Assembly: GCA_012516785.1 (NCBI GenBank)
Contig: JAAYWH010000074.1
Span: 1-64,000 of the forward strand
DNA length: 64,000 nucleotides
Direction: 5' to 3'
DNA from: Methanomicrobiales archaeon
Lineage (GTDB): Archaea; Halobacteriota; Methanomicrobia; Methanomicrobiales; Methanospirillaceae
Shown here: positions 1 to 7,960 of the stretch, one piece after another
How positions within the stretch are numbered: position 1 is the first letter of the stretch
How the letters are laid out: each line of letters starts with the position of its first letter
The notes under the pieces: model-generated
The model's input: only the letters and a program-made list of their open reading frames with translations
What the model was told of the DNA's origin: nothing
Databases searched by the model: none
Translations under genes and position numbers: made by a program

Positions 1-3000
1 CTTCCTTGATCGATTCAAGGGCATCCGTCACCTGCTTGAAGGCTTCGTCGTCCTCAAGGTCAGCCACAGCGACTCCCCACCGGCCCTGGTCGCCGAGATC
101 ACAGCAGCCGTCCTCACGGTCGATACCCCACGGGGCACCGATCAGGTTCCAGCCCGATTCAAGGGAGATTGCCGAGAGTCCTGGTGAGGGTCCGGCATTG
201 TAGAGCACCGGGAACATTGACTCGGATTTCATCTTGATGTAGTATCCCTGTCCCGGGATGATTTCTTCGCCGCTGGCTCCAACGTTCACCCATACGTCAT
301 CTTCTGCATCCCACTTGTAGACCACTACGATATTTTCTCGGGTGATGAACTTTCCGAGGGTTGCAATCTTAGGTATGGTGTTTGCTTCATCAGCCAGGGT
401 TACCGGTACCGACAGGGTGTTCCAGCCACACTGGAGCGGGAGCTGTGAACCATATATCCGGATGTTTGTGCAGGACCCGTCAAGCATACACATTGCCGAG
501 CGGTAGAGCCATGGGTCGTAGTGGACACGGTGGCTCACTTCGTCACCATTGCCGAGTGCATTGCTCCGCTGATCCAGTTCGTGGCAGCGACAGTCGATGC
601 AGTCAACGATCGGTGCGGGTCCGGCACTCGGGCCGCCGGGGCTGCCCCAGTAGTTCTCCTTGGCAACCAGGTCACAGCAGGCAAGGTTCTTGACACCCCA
701 GTACTTGTTGCACCAGATGTCGTTCCACTTGAAGTCGATTCTGCTGGGTATTGCTGCTTCAGTCAGAAGACCAAAGACCCCATTTTCATGGATCTGGTTG
801 GCCTGAATGATGATCTGGCCTCCCTGGGTGGCGCCTTCCATAAGGTAGACTCCGGCATGGAAGTTATCGGTCACGTTGTTGTGAACGATATAGAGGGTCA
901 TGTTGCACCCGCCACAGCCATTCTCTCTCCATTCCGGCTCAAGTATTGCCGGGCATGTGCCTGAGCAACATGCACCTAATGCACATGGTCCCGGTCCACA
1001 GGGTTGCAGATCCTCCTGGTTGATTGGTTCGTCACTGTTGGGCTGGCATTCAGAGCATGGTTCTCCGCAGACGTCTCCAACACACCGGATCTGGATACCG
1101 GCATCAGTCCACCCTGGGTACTTACCGCAGGCAGTTGGATCGCTGGTGAAGTACTTTGTCCCGGCCTTTTCAACTACCCATTCACCCTTGGGAGCTACCC
1201 CGGTTTCTGGGAAGTGTCCGTTATGGTAAATCTCATTTAATATGATCTCGCTGCATGCCGGGCTGTGGGTGATCGCTGCGGGATCGATGGTTTCAACGCC
1301 GCAGAAGAGGCAGCCGGCATCGATACCGTCATCGATGTTGCCATGGATCTTGTTCTCGGAGATGAGAACGACTGCGTCGTTGACGTAGATACCATTCTCG
1401 CAGTTGTTGACTATATCGTTCTTGACGATATTGATCCTGCCCTGGCAGCATGGGACCTCAATATTATCACAATCTACTTCCTTGCAACCCGTTTTCTCAT
1501 TACAGCCGGGCCCTTTTATACTGTCGAGAATTGTGGCTTTTTCGCATTTCTCGCTACAGAGCCACACCAATACCCCGTTTGTCTTGGAGTTCTTGATAGT
1601 GAATCCTTCAATTCCTGTGCTGCCTGATGAGAGGTATACGGCACCGGACTTGTCAGAATCGTCACAATCAGCTTTCTTCGGGGTCAGTCCCTTCGCATCG
1701 ATAACCGGCGCTGTTCCTTCCTTGTTCTTCAGGAGGACGCCGGGGGTATCGATCTCGATTGTCTCGGTGTATACCTTGCTGTCATCAGCTTCGATAACCA
1801 TGCCGATAAGCCCTTCGTATTCTGGGTTGCAGTCAAGGTAATTCTGGGTAACGAGGTCCCATGCAGGTTCCTGTGCCTCAACGTTGATGATGTCCTTGAC
1901 ATCATCAGGCATGGATGGTGCCCACACCCACTGGCCATTTGGCAGGATCGTTACTGTTGCATGCTGGGTTGGAGTCTGGGGATTGGTATCCTCATACGTG
2001 ACCATGAAGGTCTCGGGGTTTTTAACCGGTACTGATTTCACCACAACTTCAGGAATAACTCCGGATGCTGTATCAACATCGCCGCTTCCTCCATACTCCC
2101 AGAGAACGGTAGAAGGATCATCCCAAGCTTCCAAGTTGAAGACTGCGGAATTGCCTCCAATATAGAGGTCATCGGCAAAGTCGAGCATAGGCTGGAGCTT
2201 ATCGGTTCCCCATACCTTGACCTTGACGATATCCCCGCATTCACTCAGCGGGAGCTGGTATTTGAGGTACCCATATACCGGCTTCTTTATGAACGTCGCG
2301 GTGATCTTGTAGGAGCAGTGGAGCTCATCAAAGGTGTAGGTTGCCTGGACACTACCGTGCTTGTCGATAATGGTGCAATCTTCACAATCCTTATAGATAA
2401 TGTCTTCCGGATCCGGTACGCCTTCACAGAGCGGCTCGATTACAATCTTGTCAATGATGTGACTCTCTCCAGTGATCAGGTATGTTGGGGTTGACCCGAC
2501 TTTGAACATCTTCTCAAAATCAGGGGCAGCACTCTCTCCCGTCGGGGGATAGGTTACATGTCCACCTGGGCCGGAGGATGCAATGATCTTCACATACCTC
2601 GTGCTTATCTGCGGGCACCGCTGGAGGTCGTTTGCAACCCAGACGGTGAAGTCATAGCACATCAGCTCATCGCAGGTAATGCAGTCCCCAAAAGGACAAT
2701 CCGGTTCGTCACAGGGAGCAGAAAGACCGCATTTGAACCAGATCGTGACATCCTTGTTCATCGGGATGCTCTCTGATATCCAGATCTTTACTGCTTGTGA
2801 CGCATTTGCTGGTGCAAACACGGGCAGTTCATCTGTACCGTATACCGCAACATCAGCTGCGGGTTTGTTTGAATGTCCTTCCCATTTGATCTGCACACAT
2901 TCTTCTGCGAGGGTCGGGTCTATCTCGATCGCTTTGTCAAAAAAGACCCAGAACCCGTTGGTATCTGCCTGGAGCCCTGCGTCTGAATGGAATGAGATGT

Positions 3001-3160
3001 AGAATTCATAATCGCAATCGACGTACAGTTTGACATCCTTGATGTCAGGATCTGTACCACAATCTGCTGCTGAACAGGCCTGGAAAAGAAGCATGCAGCA
3101 GAGCACAACCAGTACGGCTGTTGCTACGCGTGATTTACCAATACATGGCCACCTTGTCAT
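1..3160 (-). CDS. Giant cysteine-rich secreted beta-helix surface protein (C-terminus outside window)
   Basis: The reverse strand is open without a stop from the ATG at 3160 to the window edge, giving 1053 codons. A strong GGAGG site (3167-3172) precedes the ATG. Residues 1 to about 31 form a signal peptide with a hydrophobic core (VLVVLCCMLLF) and an Ala-type cleavage site. The mature protein has a great many cysteines, often as CxxC or CC pairs. Around residue 200 a GGHVTYPPTGES stretch resembles divergent InlB-like repeats. Residues about 500-850 contain degenerate repeats such as GIEGFTIKNSKTNGV and NDIVNNCENGIYV, typical of NosD/parallel beta-helix proteins, ending in a NYWGSPGGPS motif. 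Two WN-L-(S/I)-P blocks follow near 910 and 1000. The likely role is an envelope or adhesin-like protein, probably disulfide-bonded; ligand and anchor are unknown. No close family name is claimed. Confidence 0.85.
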   Translation of the reverse strand, partial: MTRWPCIGKSRVATAVLVVLCCMLLFQACSAADCGTDPDIKDVKLYVDCDYEFYISFHSDAGLQADTNGFWVFFDKAIEIDPTLAEECVQIKWEGHSNKPAADVAVYGTDELPVFAPANASQAVKIWISESIPMNKDVTIWFKCGLSAPCDEPDCPFGDCITCDELMCYDFTVWVANDLQRCPQISTRYVKIIASSGPGGHVTYPPTGESAAPDFEKMFKVGSTPTYLITGESHIIDKIVIEPLCEGVPDPEDIIYKDCEDCTIIDKHGSVQATYTFDELHCSYKITATFIKKPVYGYLKYQLPLSECGDIVKVKVWGTDKLQPMLDFADDLYIGGNSAVFNLEAWDDPSTVLWEYGGSGDVDTASGVIPEVVVKSVPVKNPETFMVTYEDTNPQTPTQHATVTILPNGQWVWAPSMPDDVKDIINVEAQEPAWDLVTQNYLDCNPEYEGLIGMVIEADDSKVYTETIEIDTPGVLLKNKEGTAPVIDAKGLTPKKADCDDSDKSGAVYLSSGSTGIEGFTIKNSKTNGVLVWLCSEKCEKATILDSIKGPGCNEKTGCKEVDCDNIEVPCCQGRINIVKNDIVNNCENGIYVNDAVVLISENKIHGNIDDGIDAGCLFCGVETIDPAAITHSPACSEIILNEIYHNGHFPETGVAPKGEWVVEKAGTKYFTSDPTACGKYPGWTDAGIQIRCVGDVCGEPCSECQPNSDEPINQEDLQPCGPGPCALGACCSGTCPAILEPEWRENGCGGCNMTLYIVHNNVTDNFHAGVYLMEGATQGGQIIIQANQIHENGVFGLLTEAAIPSRIDFKWNDIWCNKYWGVKNLACCDLVAKENYWGSPGGPSAGPAPIVDCIDCRCHELDQRSNALGNGDEVSHRVHYDPWLYRSAMCMLDGSCTNIRIYGSQLPLQCGWNTLSVPVTLADEANTIPKIATLGKFITRENIVVVYKWDAEDDVWVNVGASGEEIIPGQGYYIKMKSESMFPVLYNAGPSPGLSAISLESGWNLIGAPWGIDREDGCCDLGDQGRWGVAVADLEDDEAFKQVTDALESIKE

Positions 3161-3595
3161 ATCTATCCTCCTTTCTGATGACATCCCAGCCTACCGGCCC
3201 TATAGCCACCACGCTCCTGCCGGCAGCACCATCACTGCTGGCAGTTGTAGAGACCGGTTCACCGTGCTGTCACGAATAATCTGCAGTTTTTCTGGTATCC
3301 CACCAGTTCTGGCGAGAACTCGGACATTTTCTCTCTGCTGTTCCCTTTTTTCGATCACAGGGTATGCAGTGCTCCCTTGTCCGAAAGGGGATAAAACACC
3401 GTATGAAATAATACTATATAAAAGTTATTCACATTTTTTGGTAAAATGTTGAGAAAATGGGGATGATTGGGGGTATGGAGGGATAATTTATGCAAATTTG
3501 CATTTTGTATAATATGGGATATTATTAATATAACCAATTGGATAAATCATTGAACTCTCCGGTGTAATCTCAAATAATTTTCATTTATTTCTAAA
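3161..3595 (-). promoter_or_regulatory. AT-rich upstream region of the giant surface protein gene, with candidate TATA box
   Basis: This 435-base gap holds no convincing gene. On the reverse strand TTTTATATA at 3423-3415 is a good archaeal TATA box. It would place the start of transcription near 3390 and leave a leader of about 230 nt before the surface protein ATG at 3160. The stretch 3400-3595 is much richer in A and T than its surroundings. The long leader could carry regulation, but I see no recognisable riboswitch fold. Confidence 0.4.
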
Positions 3596-4654
3596 TTAAA
3601 CTGTTTTTTGAGGCTCTTTTTTTTGCCTGTTTTTCCGGACCTTGAAAGAAGCGAGCCTATCTATCGCGGCAATGTCAGCTTGGGGCCCGATTACCAGTTT
3701 TTTATTTTTCACCGCGCTTTCCTGAAACATCCTTCCTACGTCGTTTCTTATAATGAGGGTGGTGTATCCAGGCCCAGATCCCACCGCACCGGCAGAGATA
3801 TCAGAACAGACTCCCGTGAGATCCAGGCATGAGTGGCATCCCTGTCTGACCGTGGTTTCCAGTTCGCTCATGGGAAGGAGGAGAGAGGGCTGGTCCTTCA
3901 TAGTGACCTCAAGGTTTCCCTTCCGTACGTCAAGCCGTTCCACCTTCCAGGTATCAACCTGATACTCTCTTTTTAATTTTCTCTCGACAAGCTCTGTGTA
4001 ATCGAACGACTCGGTACAGAATAACCCGATGACGAGTCGGATAGATCTGCCATATGGCCTGAGAAGGTCATTATCACTGGTCCTGATCGCATGAAGTGCC
4101 TGGACTACGCAGGGGACTCCAATCACCGCAATCTTTCTGAACTTCCTCTCGATCACTGCTGTCTTTAAGGCTGCGACAAGGGGAACCCACCAGTTGTATC
4201 TGCTTCCTGCCTGGTGAATGATCTCTTCGCTTGAGGTGATGACGACCGATGAGGGCTTCAGGGTCCACCGGTCTTCACTCACGGTAACAACTGCATCGAT
4301 CAGCCCCTCATCAAGGGCATTTACGAGCAAGGCTGTTACCGCACCCCCGCTCTGTTTTTTCGGGACATCAAACGCCGCCTTTGCGGTCATGATCGACTGA
4401 TAGGAACCAAGACCTTTTTCACCAGGCTCCTCTTTCCTGGGGCAGGCTGCATAACAGGCACCACAGGGGACCTCGTCATGTGCCTCTTTGCAGTACCCGA
4501 TGTTTGAGGGACAGGAGGTTATTCCCTCCTCTCCAAAGCAGATAGCATCTGCAGGGCAGACCGCTACACAAGCTCCGCACCCTGCACAGATATTGCGATC
4601 CCAGACTTCAGATTTGAGATCACGATAGCTCTTCCTTGTTCTCATCCGCATCAT
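3596..4654 (-). CDS. FrhB-like F420-linked iron-sulfur flavoprotein of the glutamate synthase operon
   Basis: This 352-residue protein has an N-terminal 4Fe-4S ferredoxin motif (CAGCGACVAVCP, residues 20-31) and a further cysteine block (CGACYAACP). They are followed by the body typical of coenzyme F420 hydrogenase/dehydrogenase beta subunits (FrhB family), including KQSGGAVTALL and GVPCVVQAL. FrhB proteins bind FAD and exchange hydride with reduced F420. It is the last gene of a four-gene operon and its start overlaps the preceding stop by 4 bases, so it is probably translationally coupled. The context implies that it feeds electrons from F420H2 (or ferredoxin) into the glutamate synthase core, replacing the bacterial NADPH-dependent GltD. 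The family assignment is firm; the electron donor is inferred from context. Confidence 0.85.
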   Translation of the reverse strand: MMRMRTRKSYRDLKSEVWDRNICAGCGACVAVCPADAICFGEEGITSCPSNIGYCKEAHDEVPCGACYAACPRKEEPGEKGLGSYQSIMTAKAAFDVPKKQSGGAVTALLVNALDEGLIDAVVTVSEDRWTLKPSSVVITSSEEIIHQAGSRYNWWVPLVAALKTAVIERKFRKIAVIGVPCVVQALHAIRTSDNDLLRPYGRSIRLVIGLFCTESFDYTELVERKLKREYQVDTWKVERLDVRKGNLEVTMKDQPSLLLPMSELETTVRQGCHSCLDLTGVCSDISAGAVGSGPGYTTLIIRNDVGRMFQESAVKNKKLVIGPQADIAAIDRLASFKVRKNRQKKEPQKTV

Positions 4655-5406
4655 ACCTCCCAGGTGTATTTATTAGCAAAGGGACGGGCACTGGAAGGGG
4701 TGATGATGGAATAAGGGTCGGTCAGGAAAGGTTGGGGATCCAGGCCGAAATAACAGGCGAATTTTTCTATCAGCGGGTTAATCTCGCCCCTCTCTTCTTC
4801 CGTCATCTTATCGACCCTGGCACCAACGCCGAGATTCCAATCCGGGACATCCCCCCGGATGATGATCTTCCCGCCATGGATGCCCGAACCAATTCCCCTT
4901 TCAAGGAGGGGGGATCTCCCTTTCCTGCCAAGAACCAGGATGAGTCCGCCGGCCATGTATTCCCCGAGAAATGCCCTTGCCGACCCACCAACGATAAGGA
5001 GGGGACGTTTCTCCTGATATTGTTTCATGTGGATCCCGCCCCGGTACCCGATGTCATCACGCACAAAAATCATCCCGCCCCGCATTGAATGGGCCACCGC
5101 ATCCCCAGCATTCCCATGGATCACAATTGTCCCCGCATCCATCGTGTTTCCAGGTGCATGTTCGCAGTTCCCGTATACAATGCAGGTCGGGCCGCTCATG
5201 AACATCCCGAGATCCCCCCCAGGCACACCGTTGATAACAATCTCAACATTGCCGCGGAGCCCGTCTGCTATAAACCGCTGCCCCATGATATTATCCAGAT
5301 GGATCCTGCGGACACCGGAGGTAACAGCAGCACGGATAGCTCTGTTGAGCGGGGTGTAATGCATACCTGATGTATCGATCCTGATGGCATCCTGCAATTC
5401 GGTCAT
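4651..5406 (-). CDS. Glutamate synthase GXGXG-domain subunit
   Basis: This 251-residue protein corresponds to the C-terminal right-handed beta-helix (GXGXG) domain of large glutamate synthase. It shows the serial Gly-rich turns (GNAGDAVAHSMRGGMIFV, GEYMAGGLILVLG, GIHGGKIIIRGDVP). In bacterial GltB this domain is fused to the amidotransferase and FMN domains. Here, as in other archaea, it is a separate polypeptide that should dock with the FMN subunit encoded just upstream. The start overlaps the upstream stop by 4 bases and its own stop overlaps the FrhB-like gene, so all four proteins are likely made as one complex. Confidence 0.9.
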   Translation of the reverse strand: MTELQDAIRIDTSGMHYTPLNRAIRAAVTSGVRRIHLDNIMGQRFIADGLRGNVEIVINGVPGGDLGMFMSGPTCIVYGNCEHAPGNTMDAGTIVIHGNAGDAVAHSMRGGMIFVRDDIGYRGGIHMKQYQEKRPLLIVGGSARAFLGEYMAGGLILVLGRKGRSPLLERGIGSGIHGGKIIIRGDVPDWNLGVGARVDKMTEEERGEINPLIEKFACYFGLDPQPFLTDPYSIITPSSARPFANKYTWEV

Positions 5407-6911
5407 GCCCCCACGGTCTTGATATCGAGGACTTTCATGATGTTTTCATCAAGCAGGTATCCTCGCAGTCGATCACGGTTACCCCGCAATGATTCGATAC
5501 TGTTGATACCTGCTGCCCCCATCAGTTCTGACAGTTCAAGAGTCCAGGCATGAATAAGGTTTGCCACATTTACCGAGGCATAATCGGGATCGAGCCGTGC
5601 AACGAGATCCGGCCGTTGGGTTGCTATTCCCCATGGGCAGAGTCCTTTGTAACAGGTCCCGCATACCCTGCATCCCATCGCGACAAGAGCTGCAGTCCCT
5701 ATGTATACGGCATCGGCACCAAGGGCGATCACCTTGGCTACGTCCGCACTTTCACGGATTCCGCCGCTTGCAATGATGGAGACTTCGTTACGGATGCCCT
5801 GCGAGCGGAGCTTGGCATCAACACTTGCAACCGCTGCCTCGATGGGGATGCCAACGTGGTCCCGGAAAACACGGGGTGCGGCACCAGTTCCCCCCCTGAA
5901 ACCATCAATCACAACGGCATCAGCTGAGGACCGGGCTATCCCTGCTGCGATAGCAGCAGAATTATGAACGGCGGCAATCTTTACAAAAACCGGTTTTTTC
6001 CATTCGGTCGCTTCCTTCAGGCTCCGGACGAGCTGCTTCAGATCTTCAATACTGTAAATATCATGGTGAGGTGCCGGGCTAATCGCATCACTTCCCTCCG
6101 GGATCATCCTCGTGCATGAGACGTCTGCACAGACCTTCTCGCCTGGAAGATGTCCTCCGATGCCCGGTTTTGCCCCCTGGCCTATTTTGATCTCGATTGC
6201 CGCACCCCTCTCAAGGTAATTGATGTCCACACCAAAGCGGCCGGAAGCAACCTGTACGATCATGTGATCCTGGAATGGGTAGAGTGATTCGTGCAGACCC
6301 CCTTCACCAGTACCCATGAAGGTTCCACACTCAGTCACAGCACGGGCCAGTGACTGCTGGGCATTGAGACTGATAGCACCATAGCTCATGTGACCGATCA
6401 TGATGGGCGTCTCGAGCATCAGGTTCGGAGAGAGTATCGTCTGGAGTACCGTGTCTCCCTCTACAGTTTTGAAATTCAGGTGTGATGGCTTCTTCCCGAG
6501 ATAGGTCCTCAGTTCCATCGGCTCGCGAAGCGGATCAATACTGGGGTTAGTTACCTGGCAGGCATCAAGGACCAGCCGATCGAAGATGACAGGGTAATCC
6601 TGTGCATTTCCCATTCCGGAGAGTATGATCTTCCCGGTCCGAGCCTGATTGTAAATTGCCTCCCTTACCTGCGGGGTCCAGATGGGATGGCTCCGGTAAT
6701 CCACCGGACGTTCAACAAGGCTGATTGCATCCCTGGGGCACATCGAGATACACCGGTGGCAGGCAACGCACACCCTTGAATTCACATGGATCTGTTCACC
6801 TTCCTTCCGGAACACCCCGTATGGACAACTATCAACACAACGTCCGCAAAGCATGCACTGGTCACGGTCCACGCTGATGCGGTATCGGAGCGGGACGCTC
6901 CCGATGCTCAT
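5403..6911 (-). CDS. gltB: Archaeal glutamate synthase, FMN-binding synthase subunit with N-terminal ferredoxin domain
   Basis: The 502-residue protein starts with a two-cluster ferredoxin domain (CMLCGRCVDSCP and CVACHRCISMCP, residues about 19-60). The FMN-binding synthase domain follows, with HMSYGAISLNAQ, GEGGLHESL and GQGAKPGIGGHLPG, and the Cys block MGCRVCGTCYKGLCPWG that ligates the 3Fe-4S cluster. This subunit reduces 2-iminoglutarate, made from 2-oxoglutarate and ammonia, to glutamate. It directly follows the amidotransferase gene: the stop of one and the start of the other share base 6911. The added ferredoxin domain is the normal archaeal arrangement and gives an electron path to the FrhB-like partner. 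Confidence 0.93.
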   Translation of the reverse strand: MSIGSVPLRYRISVDRDQCMLCGRCVDSCPYGVFRKEGEQIHVNSRVCVACHRCISMCPRDAISLVERPVDYRSHPIWTPQVREAIYNQARTGKIILSGMGNAQDYPVIFDRLVLDACQVTNPSIDPLREPMELRTYLGKKPSHLNFKTVEGDTVLQTILSPNLMLETPIMIGHMSYGAISLNAQQSLARAVTECGTFMGTGEGGLHESLYPFQDHMIVQVASGRFGVDINYLERGAAIEIKIGQGAKPGIGGHLPGEKVCADVSCTRMIPEGSDAISPAPHHDIYSIEDLKQLVRSLKEATEWKKPVFVKIAAVHNSAAIAAGIARSSADAVVIDGFRGGTGAAPRVFRDHVGIPIEAAVASVDAKLRSQGIRNEVSIIASGGIRESADVAKVIALGADAVYIGTAALVAMGCRVCGTCYKGLCPWGIATQRPDLVARLDPDYASVNVANLIHAWTLELSELMGAAGINSIESLRGNRDRLRGYLLDENIMKVLDIKTVGA

Positions 6912-7960
6912 TACTGTGCCCTCCCAATGATCGGTTCTCCGGCCCGCGGCATGGTGATGTCACCCACCCCGGGATCCAAGGTCCGTATCGCCGCTTCTTC
7001 GCTGGATATGTAGAGCCGTGCACCTGATTCCCCGGACACAAGGGGCCGGAGTTTGATCCGGTCGGTAAATCCTACCATACTGTCATGGTTGGCTACAACA
7101 ATAGCAAAAGGGCCGTTCATGAGAGCCGGACCATAGGTGAGCCGGATTGCACGCATGATCTCCTGTTCACGATTGGGCATCCGGTCGATCTCATCCCAGA
7201 ATGGCGGGGCAAGGGCTTTCACGGCAGTCTCGATTGTGAGGCCATGCCGCCGGATCAGGAGATCGAAGAGATATGCGACGACTTCAGTATCGGTAAACAT
7301 GGAACAGCGATACCCGTAACTTTCGATATATCTCCGGTTAGTTCCATAAGATGTTATCTCGCCGTTATGGACAACACTCCAGTGAAGAAGATTGAAGGGA
7401 TGTGCCCCTCCCCACCATCCAGGGGTATTGGTAGGATAGCGATTGTGCCCAAGCCAGAGGTATCCTTTGTAATCCTGGATCCGGTAAAAGTCGGCAACCT
7501 CCTCAGGCCATCCGGATGCTTTAAAGACAGCAAGATCTTTTCCTGAAGAGTAGACCAGCGCCCCAGGGATACTTGAATTTATTTTCATCACGAGATGGGT
7601 GACAATATCATCTGCAGGGGTGATACTCCGGGGCATAAGATGGATGTCCGGTTTAAAGAAAAATCTCCATGGGATATGCAGCTTCCGGATATTTGCCTGT
7701 TCGAAGGTGGGAATTGCTTCCTGGTATTCAACGGTCCCCCATTTAGAGAGTTCATCCTCAACGAGGGGTTTTGTCTCGTGCGGATTGTCAAAAAAAACAT
7801 GGAGGGCATAATACTCCTTATAGTCCGGGAATGCGCCGTATGCTGCGTACCCTGCCCCTTCACCACTCCCGCGTTCGTCCATTCTTGAGAGAGCAGACCG
7901 TATCCCTGTCCCGTCCATCCGCTGACGGGAACGATCAATCACACCGATGATTCCACACAT
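6911..7960 (-). CDS. Glutamate synthase glutamine amidotransferase (class II) subunit
   Basis: This 349-residue protein begins MCGIIGVID, so Cys2 becomes the N-terminal nucleophile after Met removal, as in class II (Ntn) glutamine amidotransferases. GHNRYPTNT and VVHNGEI, which line the glutamine site, are present. It hydrolyses glutamine and passes ammonia to the synthase subunit encoded next. It is the first gene of the operon and is read divergently from glnA across a 93-base shared promoter region. That region contains a TGAC-N6-GTCA palindrome at 7975-7988, close to where its transcript would begin. Confidence 0.92.
   Translation of the reverse strand: MCGIIGVIDRSRQRMDGTGIRSALSRMDERGSGEGAGYAAYGAFPDYKEYYALHVFFDNPHETKPLVEDELSKWGTVEYQEAIPTFEQANIRKLHIPWRFFFKPDIHLMPRSITPADDIVTHLVMKINSSIPGALVYSSGKDLAVFKASGWPEEVADFYRIQDYKGYLWLGHNRYPTNTPGWWGGAHPFNLLHWSVVHNGEITSYGTNRRYIESYGYRCSMFTDTEVVAYLFDLLIRRHGLTIETAVKALAPPFWDEIDRMPNREQEIMRAIRLTYGPALMNGPFAIVVANHDSMVGFTDRIKLRPLVSGESGARLYISSEEAAIRTLDPGVGDITMPRAGEPIIGRAQ

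Follow-up and report, generated by a model that had tools for sequence, protein, structure and literature searches.

A cysteine-rich secreted beta-helix protein in a methanogen lineage, and paired cysteines at the repeat junctions of its relatives

The window, by which we mean the whole 64,000-nucleotide stretch analysed here (GenBank assembly GCA_012516785.1, contig JAAYWH010000074.1, from a Methanomicrobiales archaeon), begins inside a long reverse-strand reading frame crowded with cysteine codons. The question that this locus raises is whether the frame is a gene at all and, if it is, what so many cysteines could be doing in a secreted protein of a methanogen. A sequence-only reading had proposed a giant secreted beta-helix protein, perhaps a surface or sheath component hardened by disulfides. 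We conclude that the gene, called A below, is real and that its product is a cysteine-rich, secreted beta-helix surface protein built of known domain kinds; the most interesting point lies in the junction-paired cysteines of its relatives. The features to which we refer are these:

2..3160, reverse strand: gene A, cysteine-rich secreted beta-helix protein, first 1053 codons, with the last 77 codons on contig C32 of the same genome
3167..3171, reverse strand: ribosome-binding site GGAGG, 6 bases 5' of the ATG at 3160
3065..3160, reverse strand: signal peptide (MTRW...CSAA) with the sole hydrophobic segment, residues 6-26; cleavage point placed by eye
2603..3061, reverse strand: N-terminal cysteine-bearing region, Ig-like by eye, resembling the beginnings of two further large proteins (in G018 and G024)
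2282..2602, reverse strand: single InlB-B-like (PF18998-like) repeat, by profile comparison and alignment
449..1825, reverse strand: parallel beta-helix region, approximate limits (PF13229, DUF1565)
905..1084, reverse strand: cysteine-rich insert in the beta-helix, 11 Cys, residues 694-753 of the reference translation
2..448, reverse strand: C-terminal GWN...GYY domains, cut by the contig end, by similarity and alignment
3596..7960, reverse strand: conserved upstream neighbours, four archaeal glutamate synthase subunit-like genes and an iron-sulfur protein, assigned by eye

The ORF listing of the window gives an open-ended frame at 2..3184 (-) of 1061 aa. We prefer the start at 3160 to that at 3184 because GGAGG stands just before the former, and the 1053 codons that follow are free of stops, as first read. 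Compared with the ortholog in genome G011, gene A shows dN 0.060 and dS 0.73, values that mark it as protein-coding and subject to purifying selection. The window and its contig (C17) begin at the same base, so that no assembly sequence lies to the left of that base; the genome (G000) is a draft of 1.96 Mb in 122 contigs, 89.9% complete. A profile of eight family members located the missing 3' end in the same genome, at C32:11701-11943 (-), the very end of that 11943-base contig. The fragment there (90 aa, C32:11674-11943 (-)) extends gene A by 77 residues past the window, with neither stop nor frameshift just left of base 1, and bears no Cys and no hydrophobic segment. The two contig ends share 13 encoded residues, FKQVTDALESIKE, with three silent differences, and beyond the tail C32 carries genes B, C and D, the same as in relatives. 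Given this tail and a complete ortholog of 1126 aa in L032 (Methanoregulaceae archaeon isolate OWC_0046; 90% identical, 90.0% between G000 and G011), the full protein is free of frameshifts and about 1130 aa long: large, though hardly the giant first described. A further ortholog in L033 (ADurb.BinA087) is 96% identical over 573 aligned residues.

The assemblies of four close genomes (G000 at window position 1, G009, G011 and G005) all break in or beside gene A. In G009 residues 1-51 and residues 482 onward fall on separate contigs, and the G005 contig ends 394 bases beyond the upstream iron-sulfur gene. Strain variation is perhaps the cause, and in genomes so fragmented chance may be as well.

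The product is as rich in cysteine as had been claimed, with 55 Cys in 1053 aa (5.2%). The background consists of 192 mechanical ORFs, each at least 150 aa long, taken from 256 kb of this genome (the window plus 20 further stretches); their weighted mean is 1.49%, an approximate value because some mechanical ORFs may be non-genes. Gene A is the maximum among the 53 ORFs of at least 400 aa (median 0.87%), and the median of the 31 signal-like ORFs without other hydrophobic segments, gene A included, is 0.92%; two shorter ORFs of the 192 equal or exceed its share (9.7% in 165 aa and 5.19% in 212 aa). From residue 34 on, the seven long rows of the family alignment hold 51, 49, 38, 39, 32, 22 and 28 Cys, the window row being counted without its Cys-free tail, and ten Cys columns are invariant across all seven. 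The 90%-identical ortholog keeps 51 of the 55 Cys (49 of 51 from residue 34 on), and 26 Cys columns are unique to the window lineage, of which ten belong to the helix insert and one to the signal peptide. Counted from residue 34, both the window form (51, with no more in the C32 tail) and the G011 form (49) have an odd number, so at least one Cys must be free, intermolecular or otherwise used. Some helix columns seem to co-vary: columns 515 and 625 hold Cys in each of the other five long rows and lack it in the window lineage, and columns 621 and 637, joined by 1020 from the C-terminal domains, have it in the window lineage and G010 alone. With seven rows and a pattern spotted after the fact, this is only suggestive.

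The claim of secretion agrees with the signal-like segment, which is the only hydrophobic one in the protein; there being no second, A is predicted to lack a membrane anchor. Lipid attachment is also thought unlikely, since FQAC (residues 27-30) is atypical by the usual lipobox rule and its Cys is absent in 5 of 7 long rows. The beta-helix assignment is borne out by PF13229 (Beta_helix, cut-off 25.9), which all four complete orthologs scanned pass at 29.5, 40.9, 39.6 and 39.0 bits, the truncated window form standing just below at 24.6. DUF1565 (PF07602, cut-off 20.3) reaches 26.6 in the G011 ortholog and 13.8 in the window form, and is unlisted for the three other orthologs. The InlB-like resemblance also stands, by profile: the N-terminal repeats of A match the PF18998 repeats of the neighbour B with hhalign probabilities of 97.2 and 96.5%, and B of L036 scores 66.7 bits against PF18998 itself. 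Direct Pfam searches with sub-regions of the window form and an ortholog returned no family at E<=10 for these repeats, and neither the N-terminal region (2603..3061) nor the C-terminal part (2-478) has a Pfam match; a domain that recurs across many genomes of the order is similar to the C-terminal region (many weaker matches, residues ~900-1010). The profile of the A family matches no solved structure at E<=0.01, and AlphaFold mean pLDDT was 34.9 for a single ortholog and 28.1 for a three-row alignment of the beta-helix region.

The likeness to other Beta_helix/DUF1565 proteins lies in the four complete orthologs that exceed the PF13229 cut-off and the single one (G011) that exceeds that of DUF1565; A is unlike them in its 5% Cys, its lineage-specific Cys-rich insert and its flanks without a Pfam name. 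Of 108 family genomes, three (G000, G009 and G011) match the insert strongly and three more weakly (E 0.005-0.007), two of the weak matches containing internal stops. The insert fits strict cystine-knot spacing, but so do 18.5% of 5000 shuffles, and its best solved-structure matches have E=1.9; we rejected a knottin. With the divergent InlB B-repeat (PF18998, Flg_new_2) A shares the profile match to the repeats of B, but it has no direct Pfam match, and neighbouring repeats here bear facing cysteines that two bacterial plasmid records lack.

These facing cysteines follow a strict rule. In B and other proteins of the family, tandem PF18998-like repeats are ~74 residues long and carry two optional Cys, an early one at column 24 and a late one at column 37 of a repeat model that we built on B of G018 and G024 and ran against the mechanical ORFs of 165 loci. 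This search recovered 388 repeats in 106 proteins, and neighbours were tabulated where the gap was at most 15 residues. At 65 junctions repeat n has its late Cys and repeat n+1 its early one, at 184 both are missing, and 1 junction (in L136) is discordant, a concordance of 249 in 250. No control pair behaves in this way: early and late Cys within one repeat give 38 both and 84 discordant (n=384), early-early of neighbours 31 and 45 (n=250), late-late 30 and 56 (n=249), early(n)-late(n+1) 25 and 42 (n=249), and late(n)-early(n+2) 25 and 29 (n=165). When junctions are thinned to at most 50% identity, 27 have both, 68 neither and 1 of the 96 is discordant. The pairing was first spotted in four B proteins, all of which are included in the count, and the loci were picked by similarity to a Cys-rich query, a choice that inflates the share of Cys-bearing repeats and does not itself create pairing.

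The early Cys is often missing from first repeats and the late Cys from last repeats, which indicates that a bond, if any, joins neighbouring repeats. Because the cysteines are all-or-none, pairwise and at a fixed place between repeats of secreted proteins, disulfides are the best explanation, and the strict late-early pairing probably marks disulfide staples from one repeat to the next. The 65 paired junctions are spread over 36 proteins, whose genomes are marked as belonging to the family of the window; few loci outside the family were read for repeats, among them the two plasmid records (L164 and L165), whose repeats are without early or late Cys. No literature title or abstract opening within our coverage, which mostly leaves out subscription journals, points to junction-paired Cys in these repeats. 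The rule offers a way to recognise stapled repeats from sequence and predicts exact Cys-Cys links.

How far does this carry over to A? All five orthologs with two repeats carry both facing Cys (columns 258 and 379). The window lineage is without the second repeat and both partner Cys, and none of four listed places with such repeats in its own genome carries an early or late Cys, which counts against the bonds. Given the junction pairing in relatives, the Cys-rich helix of A may plausibly hold disulfides as well, and we infer them there; the earlier notion of disulfide hardening has in this way gained strong indirect support from the relatives, and is unproven for the window protein itself. 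Methanospirillum hungatei belongs to the same order as the window's archaeon. PMC10593813 proposes that the Methanospirillum sheath is disulfide-linked, which would place extracellular disulfides in a methanogen, and its SH protein is like A in being an extracellular beta protein with proposed disulfide bonds. By description the two differ, SH having two Cys per monomer and amyloid-like arches (PMC10593813), A ~51 Cys and a beta-helix.

Disulfide-bolted proteins are unexpected in an organism that lives without oxygen. Should the bonds exist, methanogens would be producing and maintaining oxidised surface proteins in strongly reducing habitats, and the concrete question becomes what oxidises them. 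As a point against the bonds, VKOR, DSBA and Thioredoxin_4 have no match in the window's own genome, as assembled to 89.9%. A thioredoxin-like CPIC lipoprotein does adjoin a CcdA/DsbD-like membrane protein there (L047:113-1377, on G000:C2), both with Pfam scores below the cut-offs, and this pair is a candidate extracellular thiol relay. We would lay even odds on the wider proposition that Methanoregulaceae, as strict anaerobes, build long InlB-B-type stalks with one disulfide per repeat junction, head to tail, together with disulfide-laced beta-helix proteins, by an extracellular oxidation for which neither DsbA nor VKOR was found in the one genome searched.

Secreted homologues of A are present in related genomes, and the protein family is narrow: the same 8 genomes give strong matches whether the 108 of the taxonomic family (E<=1e-40) or the 232 of the order (E<=1e-30) are searched, with none in single-contig family genomes such as G014, G015 and G036; several of the negative genomes are incomplete drafts. 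In 19 genomes we surveyed one locus each, taking the surroundings of either the cassette itself or the conserved iron-sulfur gene upstream, with the labels GlnA, GltB, FrhB, radical SAM and UppS assigned by eye. Gene A heads a secreted cassette of A, B, an anchored C and a papain/lectin protease D. All four genes share one contig in G007, G003, G018 and G024; they do so also in G011, on a contig that begins just before A and has no upstream context, and in G000 they are split between two contigs. In G010 the contig runs out after A and the first part of B; C and D stand without A or B in G004, G008, G019 and G031; the same flanks abut with no cassette in G034 and G017; and G015, G022, G036 and G014 have other genes at its place. 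G016 was unreadable from the ORF listing, and in G005 the contig stops 394 bases after the iron-sulfur gene. Where the locus is readable, A and B occur together, before a C-D pair that also exists alone.

C has a second hydrophobic segment near its C-terminus. D matches Peptidase_C1 and Lectin_like in both copies scanned, and all 10 copies carry the catalytic motifs QxxCGxCWAF, NHA with its His, and K/RNSW (KNSW in 8, RNSW in 2). Between G000 and G011 amino-acid identity is 90.0% for A, 87.7% for B, 66.9% for C, 74.6% for D and 86.2% for the radical-SAM-like protein; A is the most conserved gene compared, and we rejected a hypervariable antigen. In the window lineage B (L062:10200-11597, contig C32) combines a long (PTTV)n linker with a single repeat free of Cys; in G018 and G024 it has six repeats, whose Cys are paired. 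Cysteines in the A and B frames show an inverse trend, at 55/0, 51/1, 39/6, 33/7, 30/13 and 26/16 in G000, G011, G007, G003, G024 and G018.

The reading that we favour, at a probability of roughly 60%, is that A is a secreted, unanchored surface protein of Methanoregulaceae, a rigid binding or structural element with a disulfide-tied helix that works with B to D. An Ig-like and InlB-B-like stalk would carry the parallel beta-helix, whose loops would be tied down by disulfides, and the C-terminal domains, of a kind common on proteins of related methanogens, would attach A to partner proteins. Its structural or adhesive role would then be played in an assembly with B, a stalk of InlB-B-type repeats, and the membrane-anchored C, and D, a papain-type protease with a lectin-like domain, may mature or remodel A to C.

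The strongest competitor, which we consider unlikely, makes A a glycan-binding or carbohydrate-active beta-helix that serves in polysaccharide attachment or degradation, its cysteines merely stabilising the fold. Beta_helix and DUF1565 regions are common in carbohydrate-active proteins, and the partner D has a Lectin_like domain, but Pfam and NCBIfam scans show no glycosidase or lyase family and no catalytic motif was identified. We give still less credence to the proposal that the cysteines are ligands for metal (Zn, Ni, Fe or a cluster) that A scavenges at the surface, after the manner of the NosD beta-helix family, named copper-binding. The odd Cys number, the CC and CxxC motifs and a CxxCxCH motif (CI[DE]CRCH) in 6 of 8 rows would suit it, as would a weak similarity to NosD. 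That motif, however, is missing in G018 and G024; NosD (PF05048, cut-off 23.6) stays below threshold in all three reported cases (window 14.3, orthologs 16.7 and 14.1); and the one-to-one pairing at the relatives' junctions fits two-partner bonds rather than four-ligand sites. Heme binding was rejected separately, CxxCH occurring in 0 of 8 rows. Least probable, and quite improbable, is that A itself makes up the sheath or S-layer, as the chief wall protein of its lineage: the signal-like segment, large size, strong purifying selection and the disulfide linkage proposed for the Methanospirillum sheath speak for it, but the two Cys per SH monomer (PMC10593813) do not, and strong matches in just 8 of 232 genomes of the order, none of them the single-contig G014, G015 and G036, argue that A is not a general sheath protein.

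The suggestion of a sheath component accordingly finds no positive evidence here, the family profile being without a solved-structure match as noted above, and we retain the rigid, disulfide-tied surface element as the preferred reading. The window's contig breaks off within a gene at its far end too, one that bears a signal and an InlB-B-like repeat (L042:13068-13682, on G000:C17).
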